A stretch of DNA of 64,000 nucleotides, from contig ONEW01000007.1 in NCBI GenBank assembly GCA_900316935.1, positions 1 through 64,000 on the forward strand. Direction: 5' to 3'. A program made the position numbers and the translations under genes. The notes beneath the pieces are model-generated. The model was not told the DNA's origin and did no database searches. It was given only the letters and a program-made list of their open reading frames with translations. Source of the DNA: an uncultured Selenomonadales bacterium (GTDB taxonomy: Bacteria; Bacillota; Negativicutes; Acidaminococcales; Acidaminococcaceae). Positions 24,065 through 40,050 of this stretch are shown here, piece after piece. Each line of letters begins with the position of its first letter. The first letter of the stretch is position 1.

Positions 24065-26323
24065 TCATTTCTGTTTCTTCTTATGTTCGGCCGGCTCCGC
24101 CATGCCGGCGGTCAGGCGCTCCACGCGGTAAACACCCTGGATGCGCTTGATGCGGCTCATAATGGCGTCGAGCTGCCCCGTGTTGCCGATGTCCAGCCCC
24201 ATGTGGATGGTTGCCACCTTGTCCTTGTTGGAATGGCTGCTGACATTGTTGATGTTGATCTTGTTCTCGCTGATGGCCATCATGATGTCCATCATCATGC
24301 CCGGCTTGTCCACGGTCTGGATGAGGATGTTGGCCTTGTAGACATTGTCCGTCGCCACGTCCCACGTTACGGGGATGAGGCGCGCCTGCTCCTCCGGATT
24401 GTTGGACATCACGTTCGGGCAGTCGCTCCGGTGCACCGAGATGCCATTGCCGCGGGTGATGTAGCCCACCACGGGGTCGCCGGGAACCGGATTGCAGCAG
24501 CGGGCCAGTTTGACCATGATGCCGTCCTCGCCCTTGACCAGGATGCCGTGGCTTGATTTCGCATTGGACGTGCGCGGCTTCAGCTCGTTCAAAAGCTGCG
24601 TCAGGTCCTTGCTCTGCTTCAGCTTTTGCTGCTGTTCCTGCTTATACATCTCGACAAGCTTCGCCATGATGGTGTTCAGCGTGATGCCGCCGTACCCGAG
24701 GGCGGCCATCATGTTGTCCACGTCAGGCAGGTTCAGCTTGTCCGACACGGTCTTCAGTTTTTCCTGGCTGGCGAACTCCTTCGTATCGTAGCCCAGGCGC
24801 TTGCACTCCTTGTCCAGCATGTCACGGCCGCGCTCGATGTTCTCTTCCTTGCGTTCCTTCTTGAACCAGGACTTGATCTTGTTGCGCGTATCCGACGAAC
24901 CGGCGATGTTGATCCAGTCGCGGCTCGGCCCCGACGCCTGTTTCGACGTGATGACCTCGACGATGTCGCCGTTCGACAGCTTGTAGTCCAGCGGCACGAT
25001 GCGGCCGTTGACCTTGGCGCCGATGCAGCGGTTGCCCACGTCCGTATGGATGCGGTAGGCGAAGTCGATGGGCACGGAGCCCACGGGCAGGTCGATGACG
25101 TCGCCCCGGGGCGTGAACACGAAGACCTCGTCGGCAAATACATCGAGCTTCACCGTGTTGACGAAGTCGCGGGAATCACTCATGTCCTTGTGCCACTCCA
25201 GCAGCTGGCGCAGCCAGGACAGTTTCGCCGCATAGGCCTTCGTCGCACCCGTGGCCGGACTGGACCCGCCGCTTTCCTTATAGCGCCAGTGCGCCGCGAT
25301 ACCGTACTCGCTGATGCGGTGCATCTCGAAGGTGCGGATCTGGATTTCCAGGGGCTGGCCGTTCGTGAAGACCACCGTCGTGTGCAGGGACTGGTACATG
25401 TTCGACTTGGGCACGGCGATGTAGTCCTTGAAGCGGCCGGGAATAGGACGCCACAGGCTGTGGACCACGCCCAGGGTGCCGTAGCAGTCCTTGACCGTGT
25501 CGACGAGCACGCGGATGGCCAGCAGGTCGTAAATCTCGTTCAGCTCCTTGTGGTCCCGCATCATCTTCTTGTAGATGCTGTAGAAATTCTTCGGCCGGCC
25601 CTGGATCTCGCACTTGATGCTGACCTTGTCGAGCTCGGCCTGCATCTGCGCCATGGCGTCGCGGACCATGGCTTCGCGCTCGCGGCGCTTCACCTTGACC
25701 TGCTCCACCAGGTTGTAATAGACTTCGGGATCGCGGTAGCGGAAGGCCAGGTCCTCCAGTTCCCACTTGATCGTGTAGATACCGAGGCGGTTGGCCAGGG
25801 GCGCGTAAATCTCCAGGGTCTCCTTCGAAATGGACTGCTGCTTGTACACGGGCATGTATTTCATGGTACGCATGTTGTGCAGGCGGTCCGCCAGCTTGAT
25901 GATGACCACGCGGATGTCCTTGGCCATGGCCAGGAACATTTTGCGGTAGTTCTCAATCTGCCGTTCCTCTTTCGATATATATTCGATTTTACCCAATTTC
26001 GTGACGCCGTCGACCAGCATGGCCACCTTGGCACCGAACATCTCCTTGATGTCGTCCAGCTTCGTGTCCGTGTCCTCCACCGTGTCATGGAGGAACGCCG
26101 CGCAGAGCGTCTCGTCGTCCATCTTCATCTGCGCCAGGATATAGGCCACCTGGGTCGGATGGATAATGTACGGCTCGCCGGAACGGCGTTTCTGGTCCGC
26201 ATGGACCCGGGCCGCAAAATCGTAGGCTTTCTGCACCTTGGCCACCTGTTTGGGGGACAGGTAGTCGGCTATGTATTTCATGAAATCTTCAATGCTGATG
26301 TTCTGGTTTTCTGTAGAAGGCAT
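24065..26323 (-). CDS. relA: bifunctional (p)ppGpp synthetase/hydrolase (Rel)
   Basis: Stringent-response enzyme, 752 aa. HD hydrolase domain with FLHDTVEDT (His79-Asp80) and KLADRLHNMRTM, synthetase domain with the GRFKDYIAVPKSN segment, then TGS domain, helical and zinc-finger region (LARCCNPVPGD) and a C-terminal ACT domain. Both catalytic centres appear intact, so it should make and degrade the alarmone, using uncharged tRNA on the ribosome as signal. It starts 12 nt after recJ. Confidence 0.96.
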   Translation of the reverse strand: MPSTENQNISIEDFMKYIADYLSPKQVAKVQKAYDFAARVHADQKRRSGEPYIIHPTQVAYILAQMKMDDETLCAAFLHDTVEDTDTKLDDIKEMFGAKVAMLVDGVTKLGKIEYISKEERQIENYRKMFLAMAKDIRVVIIKLADRLHNMRTMKYMPVYKQQSISKETLEIYAPLANRLGIYTIKWELEDLAFRYRDPEVYYNLVEQVKVKRREREAMVRDAMAQMQAELDKVSIKCEIQGRPKNFYSIYKKMMRDHKELNEIYDLLAIRVLVDTVKDCYGTLGVVHSLWRPIPGRFKDYIAVPKSNMYQSLHTTVVFTNGQPLEIQIRTFEMHRISEYGIAAHWRYKESGGSSPATGATKAYAAKLSWLRQLLEWHKDMSDSRDFVNTVKLDVFADEVFVFTPRGDVIDLPVGSVPIDFAYRIHTDVGNRCIGAKVNGRIVPLDYKLSNGDIVEVITSKQASGPSRDWINIAGSSDTRNKIKSWFKKERKEENIERGRDMLDKECKRLGYDTKEFASQEKLKTVSDKLNLPDVDNMMAALGYGGITLNTIMAKLVEMYKQEQQQKLKQSKDLTQLLNELKPRTSNAKSSHGILVKGEDGIMVKLARCCNPVPGDPVVGYITRGNGISVHRSDCPNVMSNNPEEQARLIPVTWDVATDNVYKANILIQTVDKPGMMMDIMMAISENKININNVSSHSNKDKVATIHMGLDIGNTGQLDAIMSRIKRIQGVYRVERLTAGMAEPAEHKKKQK

Positions 26324-26335
26324 CGTACCCCGTCC

Positions 26336-28684
26336 TCATCTGCGCCACAGCGCATAAATCCGCTGACGCGTAATCTTCAGGCAGTTGTTGAACAGTTCCC
26401 GCAGCGCGTCGCCCTGCTTCTGCCGGTCGCAGAACGTGGGCGATTCCGTGAGGCTGCGGCGCTGCCGGCTGCCCATGGTCAGCTCGTCTTCCTGGCGGCG
26501 GAAGAAATGCAGTTCCTCGAAAATCTGCAGGTCCGTATCCGAAAGCGGCACCTGGCTGGAGGCGGCCGACTCCTTCAACGGACCGATCTTGCAGACCGCC
26601 TGGGACCGCAGGGTCCGGTAAATGTAGCGGTACGCCAGGGACAGATGGGCGTGGCCCGGCAATTCCGCCTCCAGCCCGTCCATGGCCTCGCGGAAATCCC
26701 GCCAGCCGTACAGCAGGCCCAGCATCTCCCCCACCTGCCCTTCCAGGGGGAAGGCCTCCGGCGTGAAGATGTCCTGCCGCGGCAGGTCGTAAAGGAGGAC
26801 GACCCGCTCGCCGCTGCCGCAGCGTTCGCCGTAGTGCCGCACTGTCAGGTTCGGACTGTCCGCGAAGGGCTCCGCCGATGCGCTGCCCCCGTTCACAAAG
26901 AGTGTGACGGACGGCTCGGAACGCAGGAAGGCGCGGACGATGTCCGCCTTTTCCCCTGCCTGCTGGCGGTAATCGAAAATGGTCAGCGGCTGCCGGATCG
27001 CCAGGAGCTGCAGGTTCACACTCTCCATGCCGCGGAAAAAGTTGATTTTCGGCAGAAAGGCCAGGTCGGCTTTCGTGTTGCTGCCGACAGCCGGCAGCAG
27101 GGCCCCTCCCTGCCACATGATGCTGTTATAGGAAACGCCGCCGTATTCGGCGAACAGGCGCAGGTGGTTCTGTTCGCGTCCCACCGTGCGGGGACTGTGG
27201 AGGACCGCGTCCCGCAGGGCGAACACGGGCGCCTCGTTCCCGCACCCGAAGGGTTCCAGGTGTTCCAGCTGGTGCAGCAGGTCCAGCGTGATGGCGTGGT
27301 CTTTCTTCAGAAAGACGTCGATGTTGATTTCCGGTTCAAAATCCCGCGGCTGCAGGCGCTCTGCCACAGTCCGGCAGAAGTCCTCGCGGAACCGGTCCAC
27401 CTGGTCCGCGTACAAGGTCAGCCCCGCAGCCTGGCTGTGCCCGCCGAACTGGATCAGGTCGGCGCTGCAGGCCTTGATGGCATCGTACAGGTCCAGCGGC
27501 GGGATACTGCGGCACGATCCCTTGGCACGGTCGCCGTCGAGACTCAGCAGGATGGCCGGCCGGTAATACTTGTCCACCAGGCGGGACGCGACGATACCGA
27601 TGACCCCGGCGTGCCAGCCCTCTTTGGCCAGCACGATGGCCGGCCCGATGGTTTCCTGTTCCGCCAGCATGGCCTCGGCCTCTTCGAAAATGGTCCGGCT
27701 GATCTCCTGCCGGCGCGCGTTCTCCTCGTTCAATTCCGCCGCGATGGACGAGGCCGCCTCCTCCTCCGTCGCAGTCAGCAGCTCCACGGCGCGCTGGGCA
27801 TGTTCCAGGCGGCCGACGGCGTTCAGGCGCGGTGCCAGGATGAAGCCCACATTTTCCGAAGTAATGTTCCGTACGGGGCAGCCGCTCACCTCGATCAGTT
27901 TCCGCAGCCCCACGAGGCGCGTCGTCTCCATGGCCTGGAGGCCCTTCTTCACGATGGCCCGGTTCTCGTCCCGCAAAGGCACGATATCGGCCACGGTGCC
28001 CAGGGCGGCCAGTTCGGTGAAGTCCTCCCACAGGGGCGCGTCCGGGTGGCGCAGTTTTTCCAGCGCCTGGCACAGCTTGAAGGCCACACCGGCGCCGGAC
28101 AGGCCCTTGAACGGGTACCCGCAGCCGGCCTGGTTGGGATTGACGACGGCATAGGCTTCGGGCAGCCGGTCCGGCGCGCGGTGATGGTCCGTGATGACGA
28201 TGTCCATGCCGGCCGGCGCCTCCGCGACTTCGCGCAGGCCGCTGATGCCGCAGTCCACGGTCACGACCAGCGTCGTCCCCCCCTCAAAGAGCGTCTGCAG
28301 GGCCTCCGAATTGAGGCCGTAGCCCTCGCCCTGCCGCTTCGGGATATAGGTCCCGACGCGGGCCCCGCGGGCCTTTAAATACAGGTATAAGGTGGAACTG
28401 GCCGTAATGCCGTCCACATCGTAATCCCCGAAGACGGTGATCTTCTCCTGGCGTTCCACGGCCTGCCAGATCCGGCCGGCCGCCTTCTTCAGGTCCTTCA
28501 TGAGGAAGGGGTCGTAATAGGGATCCGCCTTGCCGTAGAGGAAATCCCGCATCTCCCCTTCCGTCCGCAGGCCCCGGTTCAGCAGGATACCCGTCACAAC
28601 GGGGGAACTGTTCAGTTTTGCAGCCAGGGCTTCCGCCAGCGCCTCGTCGTAAGGGTGCGGAAGCCAGTGTCCGTATCTCTTCAT
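26336..28684 (-). CDS. recJ: single-stranded-DNA-specific exonuclease RecJ
   Basis: 5'-3' ssDNA exonuclease in recombination and mismatch repair. 782 aa, the long firmicute form. DHH-family motifs FGDYDVDG (85-92) and TDHHRAPD (165-172), DHHA1 motif GGHSQAAG near 390, and a C-terminal extension beyond about residue 560 that is found in firmicute RecJ. Only 3 nt separate it from nfo, so the two repair genes are coupled. Confidence 0.95.
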   Translation of the reverse strand: MKRYGHWLPHPYDEALAEALAAKLNSSPVVTGILLNRGLRTEGEMRDFLYGKADPYYDPFLMKDLKKAAGRIWQAVERQEKITVFGDYDVDGITASSTLYLYLKARGARVGTYIPKRQGEGYGLNSEALQTLFEGGTTLVVTVDCGISGLREVAEAPAGMDIVITDHHRAPDRLPEAYAVVNPNQAGCGYPFKGLSGAGVAFKLCQALEKLRHPDAPLWEDFTELAALGTVADIVPLRDENRAIVKKGLQAMETTRLVGLRKLIEVSGCPVRNITSENVGFILAPRLNAVGRLEHAQRAVELLTATEEEAASSIAAELNEENARRQEISRTIFEEAEAMLAEQETIGPAIVLAKEGWHAGVIGIVASRLVDKYYRPAILLSLDGDRAKGSCRSIPPLDLYDAIKACSADLIQFGGHSQAAGLTLYADQVDRFREDFCRTVAERLQPRDFEPEINIDVFLKKDHAITLDLLHQLEHLEPFGCGNEAPVFALRDAVLHSPRTVGREQNHLRLFAEYGGVSYNSIMWQGGALLPAVGSNTKADLAFLPKINFFRGMESVNLQLLAIRQPLTIFDYRQQAGEKADIVRAFLRSEPSVTLFVNGGSASAEPFADSPNLTVRHYGERCGSGERVVLLYDLPRQDIFTPEAFPLEGQVGEMLGLLYGWRDFREAMDGLEAELPGHAHLSLAYRYIYRTLRSQAVCKIGPLKESAASSQVPLSDTDLQIFEELHFFRRQEDELTMGSRQRRSLTESPTFCDRQKQGDALRELFNNCLKITRQRIYALWRR

Positions 28685-30374: not shown

Positions 30375-31250
30375 TCACGGTCTGTCCGGCTGTTTCGCCG
30401 TCTCGTTCCGGATATACTCTTCCAGGGCCTGCTGCAGTTTCAGCGTCAGCGGCCCCGGTCTGCCCTCGCCGATGGGACGGCGGTCCAGTTTCACGACCGG
30501 CATGATCTCGCAGCGCGGCCCGCACAGGAAGGCTTCCTCCGCCTTCAGTGCGAAATCCTTCGTGAAGGACTTCTCAACGACCTGCATGTCGAACTGTTTC
30601 GCCAGCTGTTCCTTGATCAGGCTGCGCGTCAGGTTTTCATGGACCTCCTTGTCCGGGGCGGTCCAGAGCATTTCGTCCTTGACCAGCAGGAAGGCCGAAT
30701 CCGTGGCCTCCGTGATACGGTCGCCCTTGACGAAGAGGGCATCGTAGCAGCGGCCGACAGCGGCCGTATGCTTGGCCATAACCTCGTCCACGCGGTTCAG
30801 CACGTTGAACTTGCGGTTGGCCGGCCGTTCATCGGGCACGGTCATCAGGTTGACGCCGGCAGCCCGCCGGGCAGCCAGGGCGGCCCGGTCGACGGGTACG
30901 GTCTGCATGAGCAGGAGCGGGCGGCACTGTTCCGGGAAGTTCAATTCATAGGGACCGGCGCCGCGGGTGACCTGCGTGTAGATTTCCCCGTCGCCCATTT
31001 CCGTAAAGGATGCCATGTCCTCCACCAGTTCCACCAGCTCGTCCACCGTGTTGACGACAGGAATGCGCATCTGCACCACGTTGTTGAACAGGTTCTCCAT
31101 ATGCTTTTCCGTATCCAGCGGCTTGCCGTGGTAGACCGGCGTGATTTCGAAGACCCCGTCCCCGAACAGTAACCCGCGGTCGAAGGGACTGATCTGCGCC
31201 TTGTCCTTTTCCACGATGATGCCGTTGACCATAATGAGATTCTCTTTCAC
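30375..31250 (-). CDS. class IV aminotransferase (branched-chain/D-amino-acid type)
   Basis: PLP enzyme of fold type IV, 291 aa. Signature SPFDRGLLFGDGVFE near 21-35, a candidate Schiff-base lysine in the RKFNVLNR segment, and the ITEATDSAFLLV stretch near 190-201, which in relatives is ITE.S..N. The family covers branched-chain aminotransferases, D-alanine aminotransferases and aminodeoxychorismate lyase; the sequence looks closest to the first two. I chose GTG 31250 because GGAGGA lies 6 nt upstream; ATG 31232 is the alternative. Cotranscribed with the thioesterase. Confidence 0.75.
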   Translation of the reverse strand: MKENLIMVNGIIVEKDKAQISPFDRGLLFGDGVFEITPVYHGKPLDTEKHMENLFNNVVQMRIPVVNTVDELVELVEDMASFTEMGDGEIYTQVTRGAGPYELNFPEQCRPLLLMQTVPVDRAALAARRAAGVNLMTVPDERPANRKFNVLNRVDEVMAKHTAAVGRCYDALFVKGDRITEATDSAFLLVKDEMLWTAPDKEVHENLTRSLIKEQLAKQFDMQVVEKSFTKDFALKAEEAFLCGPRCEIMPVVKLDRRPIGEGRPGPLTLKLQQALEEYIRNETAKQPDRP

Positions 31251-31278
31251 CTTGACTCCTCCTCGCGATATAAGGGGC

Positions 31279-31812
31279 TCACCACTTGGCGGGGATGCCC
31301 TCGAACTTGCCCACATTCATCATGACGGACAGCATGCCCATGACGAGCCGGCCATCCTCGCCGTATATACGGCTCTGGATATCCATGGTCGTACGGCCGT
31401 GATGAGCCACGCGGCTGCGGCAATACAGCCGGCCCTGCGCCCGCACGGGGGACACGAAGCTCATGGACGACATGACCGTGACGACCCGTTCCCCCAGGGA
31501 CGCGCCCGTCACCCCCAGTACGGCGTCCGCCAGAGCGGACAGGACATCGCCGCCCACGAACTCCCCGTCGTCCGTATGCCGTTCCGGATCCAGCTGCAGG
31601 CTCACGACGGCACTGCCGCAATGGATTTCGTCAATATCGATATGGAAATAGTCCGCCATGAAGCAGTTCCGGGCGTAAATCTCCCGGATCCTGGCAGCAC
31701 AGTCCGTATAGTTTCCCGTTTCCGGATCCCGCGGGACACGGGACGGAACGGGCGGGTCTTTTGGATATTTTTCCTTTAAGGCGGTCCTCTGCCGCACCTG
31801 TTTTTCCAACAT
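31279..31812 (-). CDS. PaaI-type hotdog thioesterase
   Basis: 177 aa. The core from about residue 50 follows the hotdog pattern: N-terminal helix, GGDVLSALADAVLGVTGASLG as the central helix, TVMSSMSFVSPVRAQGRL as the following strands. Such proteins hydrolyse acyl-CoA thioesters; the acyl group is unknown. ATG 31812 follows GGGAGG. First gene of a three-gene minus-strand operon with its own consensus promoter. Confidence 0.75.
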   Translation of the reverse strand: MLEKQVRQRTALKEKYPKDPPVPSRVPRDPETGNYTDCAARIREIYARNCFMADYFHIDIDEIHCGSAVVSLQLDPERHTDDGEFVGGDVLSALADAVLGVTGASLGERVVTVMSSMSFVSPVRAQGRLYCRSRVAHHGRTTMDIQSRIYGEDGRLVMGMLSVMMNVGKFEGIPAKW

Positions 31813-33094: not shown

Positions 33095-33604
33095 TCAGCG
33101 CTGTTTCGCTTCCTGCATGGCCCGGATCATGGGCTTGATGCCGCCGCTCTCCAGAATATGCATGATATAGTCCGACAAGGGCGTGGCCTGCGCCGTGGCA
33201 CCCGTCGTGAGGTTCTCGATGCGGCCGCTGCGGATATCGACGCGCAGCCTGTCCCCTGTCGAAGTCAGCTTTGAGATTCCCTTGCAGGTGAGGACCGGGA
33301 TGCCCAGGTTGATGGCATTGCGGAAAAAGATGCGACCGAAAGATTCCGCCACGATAGCCGACACCCCAACGCTCTTCAGGGTGATGGCTGCATGCTCGCG
33401 GGACGAGCCGCAGCCGAAATTGGTCTCCGCCACCACGATGTCGCCAGGTTTGAATTTTTTTGTGAAATCCGGGTCCGCCCCGTACATGGCATACTTCTTG
33501 ATATCCTCGGGCTCTGTGAGTTCCACGAAACGGCCCGGGTAGATCTGGTCCGTATCGATGTTTTTACCGAATGCAAAAACTTTGCCTTCCACTACGTTGT
33601 TCAT
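33095..33604 (-). CDS. aconitase-family dehydratase, small subunit (LeuD/DmdB type)
   Basis: 169 aa swivel domain of a two-subunit hydro-lyase. Typical blocks: GKNIDTDQIYPGRF (13-26), NFGCGSSREHA (about 62-72) and FFRNAINLGIPVL. It completes the active site of the large subunit encoded just upstream (30-nt gap). The family includes 3-isopropylmalate isomerase, 2,3-dimethylmalate dehydratase and related enzymes; no other leucine genes are in the window, so I do not call it leuD. ATG 33604 follows GGAAGG. Confidence 0.85.
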   Translation of the reverse strand: MNNVVEGKVFAFGKNIDTDQIYPGRFVELTEPEDIKKYAMYGADPDFTKKFKPGDIVVAETNFGCGSSREHAAITLKSVGVSAIVAESFGRIFFRNAINLGIPVLTCKGISKLTSTGDRLRVDIRSGRIENLTTGATAQATPLSDYIMHILESGGIKPMIRAMQEAKQR

Positions 33605-33634
33605 GGCAACCTTCCTTTCCAAACGTTCCCGCCG

Positions 33635-34891
33635 TCAGTCCTTCAGGTACGGCGTGGGGTCCGTGATGCAGCCGTTCAGAGCCGAAGCAGCCACTGCCGC
33701 CGGCGACGCCAGAAAAATCCCGGCATCCGTGGAACCCATGCGGCCCGGGAAATTACGGTTCGTCGAGCTGATGCAGGTCTCTCCGTCCGTCAGCATACCC
33801 TGGTGGACACCCAGGCAGGCAGCGCAGCCCGGTGCCGTGATGCAGGCTCCTGCCTCCATCAGCGTCTTGATATAGCCCTTGTCCATAGCTTCTTCCATGA
33901 CCTTTTTCGAAGCCGGCACGACAATCATGCGCGTGTCGCGCGGAATGTGTTTCCCCTTCAGAATCCGCGCCGCCACGGCAATATCCGGAACACGGCCGCC
34001 CGTGCAGGATCCCAGGTACGCCTCGTCAATCTTCGTCCCGGCATATTTGTCCAGGTCATACACGTTATCCACGCTCGACGGTGCCGAAACCTGGGGCTTC
34101 AGGCCGCTCACATCGCAGGTCAGTTCTTCGGCATACTGAAAATCGGGGTCCGTCGTATAAATCTTGTAGTCCCTGATCCCCTTCTCCTCCAGATACGCCA
34201 TCGTCACCGCATCGGGCTGGATGTAGCTCGTCTTGCAGCCCATCTCCGTCGACAAGTTGCACATACACATACGCTCGGAAACGCTCAGCCGTTCCACCAC
34301 AGGGCCGGCAAACTCCACAGCGCGGTACACATTGTAGTCCGCCCCCAGGTCGCCGATGATATGGAGGATGACATCCTTCGCGTAAACGCCCGGCCGCAGC
34401 GTCCCCGTGATATTGATCTTCACGATTTCCGGCACCTTGAACCACAGCTTGCCCGTAATCAGGATGGTCGCCAGGTCTGTCGCGCCGACGCCCGTGCCGA
34501 AAGCCCCGAAGGCCCCGTGGGTCGTGGTGTGCGAATCGGTCACTACGACGATCTTGCCCGGACAGACCAGTCCCTTGTCGGCCAGCAGCTGATGGCACAC
34601 GCCCTGGTCGATGTCGAAGAGTTTCCCAATGCCCTGCTCGCGGCAGAACTGGCGGAACTCCTTATGATTCTGCGCCTGCTTGATCGTCGCGCAGGGCGCG
34701 TAATGGTCAAAGAAGAGGACGACCTTGTCCGGGTCGTACACCTTGTCGCCCTTCATCTCGTAGAAAGACTTCACGGTCTGCAGATACAGGTCGTTGATAC
34801 CGGCCAGGTCCACGTCGCAATTGACGATTTCCCCGGTCTTGACACTTGCCTGATGGGCTTTCGCCGCCAACAGTTTCTCAATGGCATGCAT
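33635..34891 (-). CDS. aconitase-family dehydratase, large subunit (LeuC/DmdA type)
   Basis: 418 aa catalytic subunit that carries a [4Fe-4S] cluster. Conserved blocks: DSHTTTHGAFGAFGTGVGATD (about 117-137, cut here in family terms to the DSHT and GTGVG motifs), LGSCTGGR (near 302-309) and APGCAACLG (near 360-368), which supply the cluster cysteines. The enzyme isomerises or dehydrates a hydroxy-dicarboxylate. The compact length is that of the archaeal/clostridial LeuC-DmdA group. It lies 37 nt after the hydrolase gene in a LysR-linked operon, which points to catabolism more than leucine synthesis; this is inference. Confidence 0.85.
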   Translation of the reverse strand: MHAIEKLLAAKAHQASVKTGEIVNCDVDLAGINDLYLQTVKSFYEMKGDKVYDPDKVVLFFDHYAPCATIKQAQNHKEFRQFCREQGIGKLFDIDQGVCHQLLADKGLVCPGKIVVVTDSHTTTHGAFGAFGTGVGATDLATILITGKLWFKVPEIVKINITGTLRPGVYAKDVILHIIGDLGADYNVYRAVEFAGPVVERLSVSERMCMCNLSTEMGCKTSYIQPDAVTMAYLEEKGIRDYKIYTTDPDFQYAEELTCDVSGLKPQVSAPSSVDNVYDLDKYAGTKIDEAYLGSCTGGRVPDIAVAARILKGKHIPRDTRMIVVPASKKVMEEAMDKGYIKTLMEAGACITAPGCAACLGVHQGMLTDGETCISSTNRNFPGRMGSTDAGIFLASPAAVAASALNGCITDPTPYLKD

Positions 34892-34928
34892 GGCTTTTCC
34901 TACCTTTCCTCCCTATCCCTGTCCACCT

Positions 34929-35867
34929 TCAAATGGTACCGCGGTCCACATCGTCCAGAAAGCGGACCAGTTCATTATACACGACCTCCGGCTGCTCTTC
35001 CGGCACAAAATGGCCGCACTTGTCGATTCCGATGGCGCGCAGCCGGTCGGAATAGACCTGCCAGCCCGCCTTGACATCCCACAGCTTGCCGACCACACCG
35101 TTGTTGCCCCACATGGCGCACAGGGGTACGGCAATCTTCTTGTGGGGTACCACATCGGCCTTGTCGTATTCCCGGTCGATGCCGGCGCTGGCCCGGTAAT
35201 CCTCGGCGATGCCGTGGATGGTGCCCGGCAGGGCGAAGCATCGCGTGTATTCCTGCAGCACCTCTTCGGGGAAATTGGCCCGTGCAGCCGGGCCGACCTT
35301 CAGGTTCAGATTATAGTGGATGAAGTAATCCGGATCGGCGGCCAGCAATTTCTCCGGAAATCCGTTGCCTTGGATGTAGAAGAACCAGTGCCAGTACTTG
35401 GTGGCGAATTCCTCGTTTGTCCCGGCATACATGTCGTACGTCGGCAGAATGTCCATGAGCGTGCAGGACAAAGTTGTCTCCGGATGATCCAGGACCAGCC
35501 GGTGCAGGACACGGGCTCCACGGTCGTGCCCGACTGCATGGAACTGGCGGAACCCGTAATGGGCCATCACGCGGATCATGTCCTGCGCCATGGTACGCTT
35601 ACTGTAGTTTGAATGGTCCGGTAACCCCTGGGGCTTGCTGCTGTCGCCGTAACCGCGCATATCGACCAGGACGGTGAAATAGCGCTGCGCCAGCTTTTCC
35701 GCCATGAAGCGCCAAATCAGGTGCGTTTCAGGGTGTCCGTGAATCAGCAGCAAGGCTTCACGCCCCGAACCACCGGCCAGGGCGTTGATCTGCACGCCGT
35801 CCCCCACATCGACGAACTCCTGCCGGAAACTGGAAAAATACTTCGCATCCATCTTGTTGCCTTCCAT
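34929..35867 (-). CDS. alpha/beta hydrolase with the full fluoroacetate/haloacetate dehalogenase active site
   Basis: 312 aa. The nucleophile motif is GHDRGAR with Asp115 instead of Ser. All residues known from the Rhodopseudomonas fluoroacetate dehalogenase RPA1163 (D110, R111, R114, D134, H155, W156, Y219, H280) have counterparts at an almost constant offset: D115, R116, R119, D139, H160, W161, Y224 and H286. Arg116/Arg119 should hold the substrate carboxylate; His160, Trp161 and Tyr224 should hold the halide. The expected reaction is hydrolysis of a 2-haloacetate to glycolate and halide. Lead gene of a three-gene operon divergent from a LysR regulator. The natural substrate could be another 2-halo acid. 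Confidence 0.85.
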   Translation of the reverse strand: MEGNKMDAKYFSSFRQEFVDVGDGVQINALAGGSGREALLLIHGHPETHLIWRFMAEKLAQRYFTVLVDMRGYGDSSKPQGLPDHSNYSKRTMAQDMIRVMAHYGFRQFHAVGHDRGARVLHRLVLDHPETTLSCTLMDILPTYDMYAGTNEEFATKYWHWFFYIQGNGFPEKLLAADPDYFIHYNLNLKVGPAARANFPEEVLQEYTRCFALPGTIHGIAEDYRASAGIDREYDKADVVPHKKIAVPLCAMWGNNGVVGKLWDVKAGWQVYSDRLRAIGIDKCGHFVPEEQPEVVYNELVRFLDDVDRGTI

Positions 35868-35940
35868 AAAACGGACCTCCCTCCGTACACCTTTCTCCTG
35901 TTTCCATTATCCCTGACCCAGACTCTTCTGTAAAATACAA

Positions 35941-35959
35941 CTATTTAATATAATTATAG
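35941..35959. promoter_or_regulatory. candidate LysR operator 1
   Basis: CTAT-N11-ATAG, a symmetric T-N11-A site of the kind bound by LysR regulators. It overlaps the presumed -10 region of the leftward hydrolase operon. Confidence 0.5.
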
Positions 35960-35975
35960 GTAAAAACTATGAAAA
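35947..35975 (-). promoter_or_regulatory. presumed promoter of the hydrolase-dehydratase operon
   Basis: Minus-strand -10 TATATT (35947-35952) and weak -35 TTTTCA (35970-35975) with a 17-nt spacer. A weak -35 covered by LysR-type sites fits an activated promoter. Confidence 0.4.
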
Positions 35976-35985
35976 CAAGCTATAA
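35967..35985. promoter_or_regulatory. candidate LysR operator 2
   Basis: CTAT-N11-ATAA, spaced 26 nt from the first site. It overlaps the TATAAT (35981-35986) that probably serves the rightward regulator gene, so binding could cause autorepression. Confidence 0.4.
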
Positions 35986-36022
35986 TAAGAACCAGGAAAC
36001 GGACCGGTAGGAGGAACAGACC

Positions 36023-36901
36023 ATGAACTTTACGCAACTGCGTTATTTTTACGAAGTCTGCCGCTGGCAGAACATTACCAAGGCGGCTGAATACTTGCAC
36101 GTGTCCCAACCAACGGTCTCTCTCTCCATGCAGGACCTGGAAACCAAGACGGGACTGAACCTGTTCCACCGCGAGGGACGTCACATCGTCATCACCGACG
36201 ACGGCATGACGCTCTACCGGCGCATCATACCTATTTTAAAGAGCATGGAGGACCTGGACAAGACCGTCCGCGACCTGTCCCAAACCAAGAACCACATCCG
36301 CATCGCCGTGCCCCTGCAGATTGGCGCGCACATGCTGCCCATCTTGATGAGCCGCTTCCAACAAGATTATCCGGAAATCTCCCTGGAAATTTCCGAAGCA
36401 GGCGGCATAGACGCTCTGCGCATGCTGCTCAACGATGAACTGGACCTGGCCATCACGAACTACGATACTTCGTACAGCGACAACCTCGTCTACTGCCCCA
36501 TCTACAAAGTCGAAATCTGCTTCTGCACATATCCGGGACACCCACTTGCCGGCCGGTCTTCCGTTACGTGGGAAGAGATTGCCGCCGAACCGCTGGTCCT
36601 CCTGAACGGCGGCTTCTTCGTCAACGACCGCATCGATAAATCCTTCGTCGCCAAAGACCTCCATCCACGGATCCTGCTGCACACGACACAACTCCACACC
36701 GTCAAAAACCTGGTCTATGAACGCATCGCCTCCACGGTGCTCACACGGCAGGCCGTCCTGCCCCGGGACGGTATGGCCGTCGTGCCTTTCCGGGAGCCCG
36801 TGCGCATTACATCGGGCCTCGTTATGAAACGGGGCCACCACCTGTATGAAGATGAAAAAAAGCTCATCGCCTTCGTCAAGAAAACCTTCATACGGTCGTA
36901 A
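36023..36901 (+). CDS. LysR-family transcriptional regulator
   Basis: 292 aa. N-terminal winged helix-turn-helix (MNFTQLRYFYEVCRWQNITKAAEYLHVSQPTVS region, residues 1-33) and a C-terminal effector domain of the periplasmic-binding type from about residue 90. ATG 36023 follows TAGGAGGA. It is divergent from the hydrolase-dehydratase operon with candidate T-N11-A operators between them, so it most likely controls that operon in response to a small carboxylate. The inducer is unknown. Confidence 0.9.
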   Translation: MNFTQLRYFYEVCRWQNITKAAEYLHVSQPTVSLSMQDLETKTGLNLFHREGRHIVITDDGMTLYRRIIPILKSMEDLDKTVRDLSQTKNHIRIAVPLQIGAHMLPILMSRFQQDYPEISLEISEAGGIDALRMLLNDELDLAITNYDTSYSDNLVYCPIYKVEICFCTYPGHPLAGRSSVTWEEIAAEPLVLLNGGFFVNDRIDKSFVAKDLHPRILLHTTQLHTVKNLVYERIASTVLTRQAVLPRDGMAVVPFREPVRITSGLVMKRGHHLYEDEKKLIAFVKKTFIRS

Positions 36902-36904
36902 AAA

Positions 36905-36934
36905 AACGCCTGACTGCCAATGCAGCCAGGCGTT
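36905..36934. terminator. bidirectional terminator between the LysR gene and ileS
   Basis: AACGCCTGACTG (36905-36916) pairs with CAGCCAGGCGTT (36923-36934). The minus strand continues in a run of seven T's (complement of 36899-36906), a strong ileS terminator. On the plus strand the T-run is short. Confidence 0.85.
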
Positions 36935-36952
36935 TCGTTATGGTGTGATGGT

Positions 36953-39742
36953 TCAGTCGTCCACGCAGGAGGCGCAGCGGGCGCAAAGGGTCGGATGCTT
37001 CGGATCGGAACCGACGGTGTCGGAATAGGTCCAGCAACGTTCGCACTTTTTGCCTTCCGCCGGTTTCACGGCGACCTTCAGGTCTTCCCGGCCCGTGGCT
37101 TCGCCGGCCGCCGTATCTTCAACCACCTTGGCCTGGGATACGATCAGGAGGCTGGCCAGGTCTTTTTCAACGGCGCGCAGGATCGCCAGGGCTTCGCCCG
37201 TGGCATGCAGTTCCACCTGGGCATCCAGGGAGTTGCCGATATCCTTGGCACGGCGGTGTACTTCCAGGACCTTCGTCACTTCGCCGCGCAGGGAAATGAA
37301 CTTCGCCCATTTCTCTTCCATGGCGTCGTCAATGTATTCCTCCCTGGCTTCCGGCCAGGGAACCATCTGGACGGATTCGGGGGCATTGGCCGGTTTGCGC
37401 ATGTACTGCCAGGTTTCTTCCATGGTGAAGCTCAGGACCGGCATCAGCATGACGACCAGGTCGTAGAGGATCTCGTACATGGCGGTCTGGGCGCTGCGGC
37501 GTTCCTTGCTGTCCGGACGGCTCGTGTAGAGGCGGTCCTTGATGATGTCCAGATAGAAGCTGGACATTTCCACGGCGCAGAAGTTATGGATGGCATGGCA
37601 CAGCACATGGAAGTCGTAGGCTTCGTAGGCGGCCTTCACATCCTTCTTCAGGGACTGGAGGCACATCAGGGCCCACTGGTCCAGTTCCAGCATATCCTTG
37701 AAGTCCACCTTGTCCTTTTCGTAATCGAAATCGTAGGTGTTGCCAAGGATATAGCGGATGGTGTTGCGGATTTTGCGGTATACTTCGGCCAGCTGTTTCA
37801 GGATGACGTCGGAAATGCGGACATCCTGCTTGTAGTCGGACGATGCGGCCCACAGGCGGATGATGTCGGCGCCGTACTTCTTGATGACGTCCTTCGGGTC
37901 CACGCCGTTGCCCAGGGACTTGGACATCTTGCGGCCTTCACCGTCGACCACGTAGCCGTGGGTCAGGACGGATTTATACGGCGCGTGCCCCGTGACGGCC
38001 ACGGAGGTCAGCAGGGACGACTGGAACCAGCCGCGGTGCTGGTCGCTGCCTTCCAGGTACATATCGGCCGGCCATTGCAGTTCCGGACGCTTGCGCAGGA
38101 CGCCCATGTGGCTGGACCCGGAATCGAACCACACGTCCATGATATCCTTTTCCTTGCGGAAACGGGTGCCGCCGCACTTGGGGCACTTGGTGCCTTCCGG
38201 CAGCAGTTCCTCCGCCGTATGGCTCCACCAGGCATCGCTGCCTTCCTTTTCAAAGATGTTGGCGACCTTGTCGATCGTCGCTTCGTTGACCAGCGGTTCC
38301 CCGCAGTCTTCGCAGTAGAAGATGGGGATGGGCACGCCCCAGACGCGCTGACGGCTGATGCACCAGTCGTGGCGGTCGGCCACCATGTTGTGGATGCGCG
38401 GTTCGCCCCAGGCCGGAATCCATTTCACTTCGTTGTGGATGGCGTTCAGGGCGGCCTCGCGGAAGCCGTCGACAGACGCGAACCACTGTTCCGTGGCACG
38501 GTAGATGATGGGGTTCTTGCAGCGCCAGCAATGGGCGTACTGATGGTGGATGTTCTTTTTGCCGAGCAGCATGCCCAGTTCGGCCAGGTATTTCAGGACG
38601 GGCACGTTGGCGTCGAACACGAACATGCCTTTGAAGCGCCCGCCCGCTTCGGCCGTCATCTTGCCCTGGGCATCCACGGGGCAGACGATGGGCACATTGT
38701 ATTTGAGGCAGGTCAGATAGTCGACATCGCCGTGGCCGCCGGCCGTATGGACGCAGCCGGTACCGGTCTCCAGGTCGACATAGTCCGCCAGACAGATGAG
38801 GGATTTACGGTGGTTGTATTCGGGAAACGGATGCTCGCATTCGCCGTACTCCATTTCGCGGCCCTTGACGGTGCCCAGCACCTTGCCGAAGGTCAGGCCG
38901 CATTCGGAAGCCACGTGGTCCACCAGGTCCGAAGCCATGAACAGCACTTCGTCGCCGTTTTCCACAAAGGAGTATTCGAAATCGGGGTTCAGGGTGACCG
39001 CCATGTTGGCCGGAATGGTCCAGGGCGTCGTCGTCCAGATGACCACGTAGACCGGGCGGCCGTTCGCGCCGGCCGGCGTTTTGCCATTATCCTTCACCAG
39101 CGGGAATTTCACGAAGATGGTCGGCGTCTTCTGGTCGGCATATTCGATTTCCGCTTCGGCCAGGGCCGTTTCGCAGTGGGGGCACCAGTATACGGGCTTC
39201 AGGCCCTTATAGATGTAGCCCTTGTTGGCCATGGCGCCGAAGACGCGGATCTGTTCCGCCTCGAAGGAATGACGCAGGGTCAGGTAGGGATTGTCCCAGT
39301 CGCCCAGCACGCCGAGGCGCTTGAACTCATCGCGCTGGATGTCGATGTATTTGTGGGCGTACTCATTGCACTTCGCGCGCAGCTCCAGCGGCGTCATGCT
39401 GTGACGGTCCACGCCCATGGCGTTCAGGCAGGCGTGCTCGATAGGCATGCCGTGCGTATCCCAGCCGGGCACGTACGGCGTGTCGTACCCCTGGCTGTAC
39501 TTGTATTTGACGATGATGTCCTTCAGGACCTTGTTCATGGCCGTACCCATGTGGATATCGCCGTTGGCGTACGGCGGGCCGTCGTGGAGCACCCACTTCG
39601 TGTGCCCTTCATGGAGTTTCTGTTTCTTTTCGTAAATCTTGTTGGTGTACCAGAAATCCAGATATCCCGGTTCCGCCTTCGGCAGGCCTGCACGCATGGG
39701 GAAATCCGTCTGCGGCAGGTTCAACGTCTTGCTGTAATCCAT
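36953..39742 (-). CDS. ileS: isoleucyl-tRNA synthetase
   Basis: Class I synthetase with valine editing, 929 aa (bacterial type). Signature HMGT version of HIGH in DGPPYANGDIHMG (near 54-66), the KMSKS loop GRKMSKSLGNG (near 603), the CP1 editing insertion in between, and a C-terminal zinc finger CERCWTYS...CARC (last 35 residues). ATG 39742 follows AGGAGG. Expression should be controlled by the T-box leader directly upstream. Confidence 0.97.
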   Translation of the reverse strand: MDYSKTLNLPQTDFPMRAGLPKAEPGYLDFWYTNKIYEKKQKLHEGHTKWVLHDGPPYANGDIHMGTAMNKVLKDIIVKYKYSQGYDTPYVPGWDTHGMPIEHACLNAMGVDRHSMTPLELRAKCNEYAHKYIDIQRDEFKRLGVLGDWDNPYLTLRHSFEAEQIRVFGAMANKGYIYKGLKPVYWCPHCETALAEAEIEYADQKTPTIFVKFPLVKDNGKTPAGANGRPVYVVIWTTTPWTIPANMAVTLNPDFEYSFVENGDEVLFMASDLVDHVASECGLTFGKVLGTVKGREMEYGECEHPFPEYNHRKSLICLADYVDLETGTGCVHTAGGHGDVDYLTCLKYNVPIVCPVDAQGKMTAEAGGRFKGMFVFDANVPVLKYLAELGMLLGKKNIHHQYAHCWRCKNPIIYRATEQWFASVDGFREAALNAIHNEVKWIPAWGEPRIHNMVADRHDWCISRQRVWGVPIPIFYCEDCGEPLVNEATIDKVANIFEKEGSDAWWSHTAEELLPEGTKCPKCGGTRFRKEKDIMDVWFDSGSSHMGVLRKRPELQWPADMYLEGSDQHRGWFQSSLLTSVAVTGHAPYKSVLTHGYVVDGEGRKMSKSLGNGVDPKDVIKKYGADIIRLWAASSDYKQDVRISDVILKQLAEVYRKIRNTIRYILGNTYDFDYEKDKVDFKDMLELDQWALMCLQSLKKDVKAAYEAYDFHVLCHAIHNFCAVEMSSFYLDIIKDRLYTSRPDSKERRSAQTAMYEILYDLVVMLMPVLSFTMEETWQYMRKPANAPESVQMVPWPEAREEYIDDAMEEKWAKFISLRGEVTKVLEVHRRAKDIGNSLDAQVELHATGEALAILRAVEKDLASLLIVSQAKVVEDTAAGEATGREDLKVAVKPAEGKKCERCWTYSDTVGSDPKHPTLCARCASCVDD

Positions 39743-39766
39743 TTCTCTTCCTCCTGTGATCCTTGC

Positions 39767-40050
39767 AAAAAAATAAAGCCCCGACCCGCAAAGGGACGAG
39801 ACTTAGTTTACCCGTGGTACCACCCTGATGACGGTCCGAAGGCCGCCGCTCATTCAGCGCTGTAACGTGCGCCGCTCCGTCCGGGCCTACTCACCGCGTC
39901 ACCGCGCCTTTCAGCCGGATGCTCCGAAGGGATCTTCGTTCCGTTTCCGCACTGGTCCGGGCTCGCACCCTCCCCGGCTCGCTTTCCCGCTTCCACGGAC
40001 TACTGTCTTCGTCATCGCATTTCCGATATGGGTCTGGAACTTGTTAACGT
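39767..40050 (-). ncRNA. T-box leader (tRNA-Ile-sensing riboswitch) of ileS
   Basis: The minus strand contains the diagnostic T-box sequence AGGGTGGTACCACGGG (39812-39827), whose UGGU pairs with the CCA end of uncharged tRNA. Downstream is the terminator stem 39778-39802 followed by a T-run (39767-39777); the T-box side can form the competing antiterminator. Upstream lies a long stem I region with a GTAGT element near its start. A possible Ile specifier codon ATC is at 39931-39933. Uncharged tRNA-Ile should allow read-through into ileS. Confidence 0.9.

Follow-up and report, generated by a model that had tools for sequence, protein, structure and literature searches.

A fluoroacetate dehalogenase-like hydrolase beside a LeuC/LeuD-type hydro-lyase in a rumen-type Negativicute: a candidate trans-epoxysuccinate hydrolase

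Introduction

The closest described relatives of the hydrolase discussed here are the fluoroacetate dehalogenases (FAcDs; EC 3.8.1.3), two of which, Alr0039 (NOS0089; structure 3qyj) and DAR3835 (8sdc), have been assayed as such (PMC11022551). Together with RPA1163 (3r3u), they share with our enzyme the fold, an Asp-His-Asp triad, two carboxylate-binding arginines and a His-Trp-Tyr halide pocket, at 37-45% identity in the structural match. The gene content of a dedicated fluoroacetate cluster is illustrated by Caballeronia S22, in which a dehalogenase is accompanied by a fluoroacetyl-CoA thioesterase, an aconitate methyltransferase and CrcB (PMC11812338). The solved structure closest to our enzyme is 9c9f, the fluoroacetate dehalogenase D4B of Delftia acidovorans, with 46% identity and with His45 and Arg190 in its pocket. 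DeHa4 of the same Delftia strain defluorinates mono- and difluoroacetate, and 9c9f would cleave both compounds if it is identical to DeHa4.

A second activity of importance is that of trans-epoxysuccinate hydrolase (EC 3.3.2.4), which yields meso-tartrate and whose reaction and product are those proposed below for our enzyme. A parallel case is provided by the cis-epoxysuccinate hydrolases CESH[L], which are closely related to 2-haloacid dehalogenases (PMC10869282), but which have a HAD-like fold, act on the cis substrate and form L-tartrate. Several fungi produce the trans acid, for which a biotransformation to meso-tartaric acid is listed (PMC8230503); its formation from fumarate has been described (PMC12568646). 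The literature searched gave nothing direct on a trans-epoxysuccinate hydrolase, on the combination of haloacetate dehalogenase and isopropylmalate dehydratase, or on a LeuCD-type tartrate dehydratase.

Here we describe a FAcD-like gene in a 64,000-nucleotide stretch of DNA (the window) from an uncultured Selenomonadales bacterium. Its product is probably a dicarboxylate-adapted relative of the FAcDs, acting as a trans-epoxysuccinate hydrolase that forms meso-tartrate within a tartrate-to-oxaloacetate unit.

The gene and its surroundings

An earlier note had placed a probable fluoroacetate/haloacetate dehalogenase at 34929-35867. These coordinates are right and the coding strand is the minus strand, a plus-strand frame over the same interval being ruled out by stop codons. 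The features of the locus are as follows.

33095..33622, minus strand: LeuD-like small subunit, 175 aa, TTG start as listed, 12 bases after the LeuC-like gene
33635..34891, minus strand: LeuC-like large subunit of an aconitase-family hydro-lyase, 418 aa, 37 bases past the FAcD-like gene
34929..35867, minus strand: FAcD-like alpha/beta hydrolase, 312 aa, ATG start at 35867
Catalytic and binding residues of the hydrolase: nucleophile D115; R116/R119; acid D139; base H286; H160/W161/Y224
Subfamily marks of the hydrolase: H45, W159, K190
Upstream of the FAcD-like ATG: GGAGGGAGG, a ribosome-binding-site-like stretch
35868..36022, no strand: divergent intergenic region of 155 bases between the FAcD-like and LysR genes
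36023..36901, plus strand: divergent LysR-type regulator, kept beside the cluster in Acidaminococcaceae and Anaerospora

All eight residues named in the earlier note (D115, R116, R119, D139, H160, W161, Y224 and H286) were found at their numbers, and alignment reproduces their offset from RPA1163 (D110, R111, R114, D134, H155, W156, Y219 and H280), namely +5 for seven of them and +6 for the last. That this likeness is not casual is confirmed by phmmer, which returned homology to the solved structures with 304 bits for 9c9f, 294 for Alr0039, 257 for DAR3835 and 214 for RPA1163. The gene is real, because uncultured Selenomonadales RUG113 (locus L001) holds an orthologue that is 96% identical and has the same neighbours. 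Matches at E 1e-60 or better occur in 17 of 300 Negativicutes genomes. The source genome (1.95 Mb, about 92.5% complete) belongs to the same genus as G004, probably Succiniclasticum ruminis, in agreement with the gut or rumen Negativicute host suggested earlier. Within the divergent region, a sigma-70-like match (TTTACA-17-GATAAT, 35934-35906) scores no better than shuffles.

Fold and catalytic residues

The AlphaFold model of the hydrolase (pLDDT 93.3, pTM 0.93) recovers the FAcD fold and cap at high confidence: the predicted alpha/beta-hydrolase with a FAcD-type cap, as in EC 3.8.1.3, aligns with 9c9f, 3qyj, 8sdc, 1y37 and 3r3u at Foldseek TM values of 0.88-0.96. The residues typical of EC 3.8.1.3 are likewise present, that is, the triad D115-H286-D139, the carboxylate arginines and H160/W161/Y224, but they are not diagnostic. 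The eight-residue fingerprint occurs in practically all compared homologues, down to 32-35% identity, the exceptions being some with Glu for D139 and one gap at H160, and for this reason it does not name the substrate. It is proof of the family and its Asp-nucleophile chemistry, not of the substrate, and its earlier use as the hallmark of true fluoroacetate dehalogenases is therefore not borne out among the homologues compared.

Pocket positions 45, 159 and 190

The comparison in the earlier note had left out positions 45 and 190, at which the window enzyme departs from the characterised enzymes. Across 86 aligned homologues, His at position 45 and a basic residue (Lys or Arg) at position 190 always occur together and never apart (64/64), with 30 Lys190 enzymes forming an anaerobe clade and 34 Arg190 enzymes a Burkholderiaceae clade that includes 9c9f. 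The remaining 22 have Phe, Tyr or Asn at position 45, and 19 of these 22 have Trp at position 190; to the Phe/Tyr45 and Trp190 type belong RPA1163 (Phe40 and Trp185 in its own numbering), Alr0039 and DAR3835. Position 159 shifts from Tyr to Trp together with the other two. Whereas the FAcDs thus line the pocket with the aromatics Phe/Tyr40 and Trp185 that characterise EC 3.8.1.3, the window enzyme has His45 and Lys190, and it also differs from them in its LeuCD operon and in that no fluoride-resistance genes were found. We infer from the sequence comparison that His45 and Lys190 may form a site for a second carboxylate.

The importance of the aromatic position is underlined by enzyme H1, in which Trp180 lines the active site and persisted through growth selections. 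The study on H1 considers this residue critical for defluorination, and notes Arg at the same position in the natural alignment, although none was recovered (PMC12955510). Trp180 of H1 was matched to Trp185 of RPA1163 by a five-residue offset of the nucleophile. In the tree, the His enzymes fall into two starred clades, and the combination of His45 with a basic residue at 190 arose once or twice (2 changes). Odd pockets are seen at loci L042 and L101, which pair Asn45 with Glu190 or His190. The LeuCD genes are nevertheless present at L101, whose enzyme may represent an intermediate state or another substrate type.

The LeuC/LeuD cluster and its conservation

The window LeuC and LeuD belong to the same family as isopropylmalate/citramalate isomerase (4nqy, 3vba) and homoaconitase (4kp2, 2pkp), but to a distinct subfamily with a mostly acidic specificity loop. 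The window LeuC is 39% identical to the other LeuC of the genome, which lies with its own LeuD on contig C42; this separate pair rules out the leucine pathway as the role of the window LeuCD and makes the latter accessory. The LeuD specificity loop is FVEL, with an acidic third residue, as compared with YLNI in the other LeuD of the genome, YLVY in 3vba and YLRT in 2pkp, so that neither the loop nor the sole LeuCD of a genome, both marks of a leucine-biosynthetic isopropylmalate isomerase, is found here. Loops with an acidic third residue (FVEL, YVEL, FVEF, YLDL and alike) occur throughout the subfamily with or without the hydrolase, the exceptions being FVQY in two Sulfurospirillum, FLAI in two clostridial loci and YVNI in L101.

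Adjacent genes for the hydrolase, LeuC and LeuD, in either order, were found in Phascolarctobacterium, Succiniclasticum, Pectinatus, Sulfurospirillum, Epulopiscium, Lacrimispora, Maledivibacter and a Methylobacteriaceae assembly, and the cluster thus extends to anaerobes of several phyla. Among 61 relatives, the subfamily LeuC is present in all genomes with a close hydrolase homologue (8/8), and in 7 others without the hydrolase. Where the genes are not adjacent, as for some homologues of Sulfurospirillum or Anaerospora, LeuC is found about 5 kb away or in another part of the genome. Carriers of the CitMHS, DASS or DcuC type stand beside several cluster loci; no transporter adjoins the window cluster. 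The Anaerospora locus L116 (G140:C12:143000-154008) unites the hydrolase, LysR, a PrpR-type activator, a DASS symporter, LeuC, LeuD and OadA, and is the fullest version of the pathway proposed below. In Epulopiscium (L020, L021), an M20-family peptidase precedes the cluster, hinting that the source of the acid may be an amide or peptide conjugate; in L021, two DcuC-type carriers follow.

Links to tartrate and oxaloacetate metabolism

In the absence of the hydrolase, the LeuCD subfamily adjoins LarA-family racemases, DASS symporters and the oxaloacetate decarboxylase alpha subunit. The closest solved structure to the LarA neighbour is the malate racemase Mar2, with 340 bits as against 218 for lactate racemase. 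At loci L091, L087 and L073 (genomes G042, G033 and G020), a malate-type LarA racemase lies directly beside LeuCD without the hydrolase, the one in L073 being an unscanned 426-aa gene of fitting size and position. A malate racemase of the LarA superfamily from Sporomusa has a side activity that interconverts L- or D-tartrate and meso-tartrate (PMC11770544). These neighbourhoods (LarA, DASS, OadA), together with tartrate racemisation, fit the formation of oxaloacetate from a tartrate.

A comparable linkage was seen in the Burkholderiaceae clade of 9c9f, most members of which have tartrate dehydrogenase or a different LeuC as a neighbour. The 29 loci in question were taken as relatives of the Comamonas homologue with flanks of about 1.5 kb, and were not chosen by context; 17/29 hold a tartrate dehydrogenase gene (TIGR02089, 541.7 bits against a cut-off of 470.4), 5/29 hold the different LeuC-type gene and some also carry TctC. 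The TIGR02089 model may take in D-malate dehydrogenases too. A HAD protein near the Comamonas homologue was considered as a cis-epoxysuccinate hydrolase and rejected, as it is a weak match to other HAD proteins. In two Burkholderiaceae loci (L161, L163), the homologue is accompanied by an AtuA-type family protein and ABC transporter genes, and no tartrate genes are present.

None of these tartrate dehydrogenase or LeuC-type genes occurs at the Phe/Tyr-type homologue loci, and the sole non-His locus that has them is L101 (Asn45). The association of pocket and context reaches p of about 2e-9 in a Fisher test that ignores relatedness, with L164-L166 having been fetched for a LeuC already seen. 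It is phylogenetically clustered, because the His45/basic190 pair arose only once or twice, and one or two independent switches give low power to a kinship-independent test. His-clade loci without a nearby tartrate gene are L003, L006, L012, L013, L026 and L098. The three Sulfurospirillum-type loci among them (L012, L013, L026) encode the hydrolase next to an EamA transporter and uncharacterised genes; LeuC, and LeuCD as a whole, lies elsewhere in their genomes. Overall, a tie to tartrate and oxaloacetate catabolism, which is expected of a trans-epoxysuccinate hydrolase without defining it, is present.

Fluoride resistance

No CrcB was found in the source genome (about 92.5% complete), in the hydrolase-positive congeners or within any homologue locus, and no fluoride riboswitch was detected in the source genome; since this genome is incomplete, the absence is not absolute. 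The single CLC of the source genome has the motifs GSGIP and GREGP, which we take to be of the chloride type. Looked for as CrcB, riboswitch or CLC, a fluoride-type exporter was thus not found there. Phascolarctobacterium faecium (G015) has CrcB elsewhere in its genome. A fluoride-resistance context is expected of a physiological FAcD role, though not strictly defining, and its absence is a suggestive argument against such a role. The window cluster is also quite different in gene content from the fluoroacetate cluster of Caballeronia S22.

Proposed pathway and competing readings

In the proposed reaction, Asp115 would attack one epoxide carbon of trans-epoxysuccinate by SN2 with inversion, and the oxyanion leaving group would be held by H160/W161/Y224, the fluoride pocket of the FAcDs. 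The first carboxylate would rest on R116/R119 and the second on K190 and H45. His286 and Asp139 would then activate water for hydrolysis of the ester. The product set free would be meso-tartrate (2R,3S), which follows from inversion at only one carbon and is the stereoisomer that the LeuCD family would be expected to take. The adjoining LeuC/LeuD-type Fe-S hydro-lyase would convert meso-tartrate via enol-oxaloacetate to oxaloacetate, feeding an oxaloacetate/succinate route, and the LysR regulator may control the unit. A check of the stereo labels showed that (2R,3S)-3-isopropylmalate with its isopropyl group replaced by hydroxyl is meso-tartrate. Meso-tartrate is not a substrate of fumarase-type enzymes (PMC3565967), and this would account for an aconitase-family enzyme being used instead. 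The proposal builds on the catalytic residues, the fold model, gene order, conserved linkage, pocket co-variation and the acidic LeuD loop, and from these observations we infer co-transcription, the role of the regulator, the substrate and both reactions. The libraries searched gave no sequence of a characterised trans-epoxysuccinate hydrolase, and membership in EC 3.3.2.4 is putative.

The original reading, a true fluoroacetate or haloacetate dehalogenase that serves detoxification or growth by converting fluoroacetate to glycolate and fluoride, now appears distinctly improbable. Part of it stands: the gene belongs to a FAcD-like branch with intact triad, arginines and halide pocket, its top fold and sequence matches have been named FAcDs or assayed as such (PMC11022551), and the rumen is a habitat where fluoroacetate can be met. 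Haloacid cleavage as the main function is not supported, given that the gene is tied to dicarboxylate and tartrate metabolism rather than to fluoride resistance, and that the pocket Trp, critical in the H1 selections, is replaced by Lys and Phe40 by His. The fingerprint is family-wide, and the operon partner is a dicarboxylate hydro-lyase with no obvious role for glycolate. The lack of CrcB and riboswitch, the presumably chloride-type CLC and the unlike Caballeronia S22 cluster point the same way. As a side activity, defluorination is a different matter: 9c9f, which is titled a fluoroacetate dehalogenase, has the same His/basic pocket, so that a putative side activity of the window enzyme on fluoroacetate is quite possible and putative C-F or C-Cl cleavage in vitro plausible. 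The theme of gut defluorination by HAD enzymes is not contradicted (PMC12184663).

Two further readings keep the dicarboxylate context. Dehalogenation of a halogenated C4 dicarboxylate (2-halosuccinate or 3-halomalate), delivering D-malate or tartrate to the linked enzymes, would make use of the retained halide pocket and of the basic residues, which suit a second carboxylate. D-malate could even be a shared intermediate, since LarA is of the malate type and the tartrate dehydrogenase family may also take D-malate. It would nevertheless be a dead end in those hydrolase and LeuCD clusters that have no racemase or dehydrogenase, because LeuCD would turn it into maleate, and the acidic LeuD loop would suit a hydroxyl better than a hydrogen. 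To our knowledge, natural halogenated C4 dicarboxylates are rare, whereas fungi are known to make trans-epoxysuccinate, and we regard this reading as unlikely. Hydrolysis of another epoxy-dicarboxylate or -tricarboxylate such as epoxyaconitate would accord with the aconitase-family partner and the CitMHS-type transporters near several loci, but the LeuD loop has no Arg as in the homoaconitase loop, the aerobes link the gene to tartrate dehydrogenase and the pocket of the relatives is built for small acids, which leaves it very improbable.

Implications

Trans-epoxysuccinate is the most likely substrate of the window enzyme. Extended to the whole clade the proposal is more tentative, its chance falling a little short of even: the His45 and Lys/Arg190 enzymes annotated as fluoroacetate or haloacetate dehalogenases, including 9c9f, may be meso-tartrate-forming trans-epoxysuccinate hydrolases, which, coupled to a LeuCD-type meso-tartrate dehydratase, would give bacteria of the rumen, the gut and sediments an anaerobic route, not described before, by which an epoxide acid of fungi is turned into oxaloacetate. 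If so, many genes called fluoroacetate or haloacetate dehalogenases should not count as defluorinating capacity, including some from Phascolarctobacterium faecium, Succiniclasticum and other inhabitants of gut and rumen, and positions 45, 159 and 190 would suffice to sort annotated dehalogenases. Candidate genes for trans-epoxysuccinate hydrolase and meso-tartrate dehydratase would be at hand, and a small pocket change would connect C-F cleaving enzymes with epoxy-acid hydrolases, offering a lead for engineering.

Other genes of the window

Very long plus-strand open reading frames at 24626-28378, 33392-35074 and 36920-39865 lie opposite the RecJ-like, LeuC and IleRS genes, and are probably shadow frames of a GC-rich genome, not genes. 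At 30375-31316 on the minus strand, a protein resembling D-amino-acid and branched-chain aminotransferases is encoded; for each NCBIfam model that it matches, its score stays below the curated cut-off.
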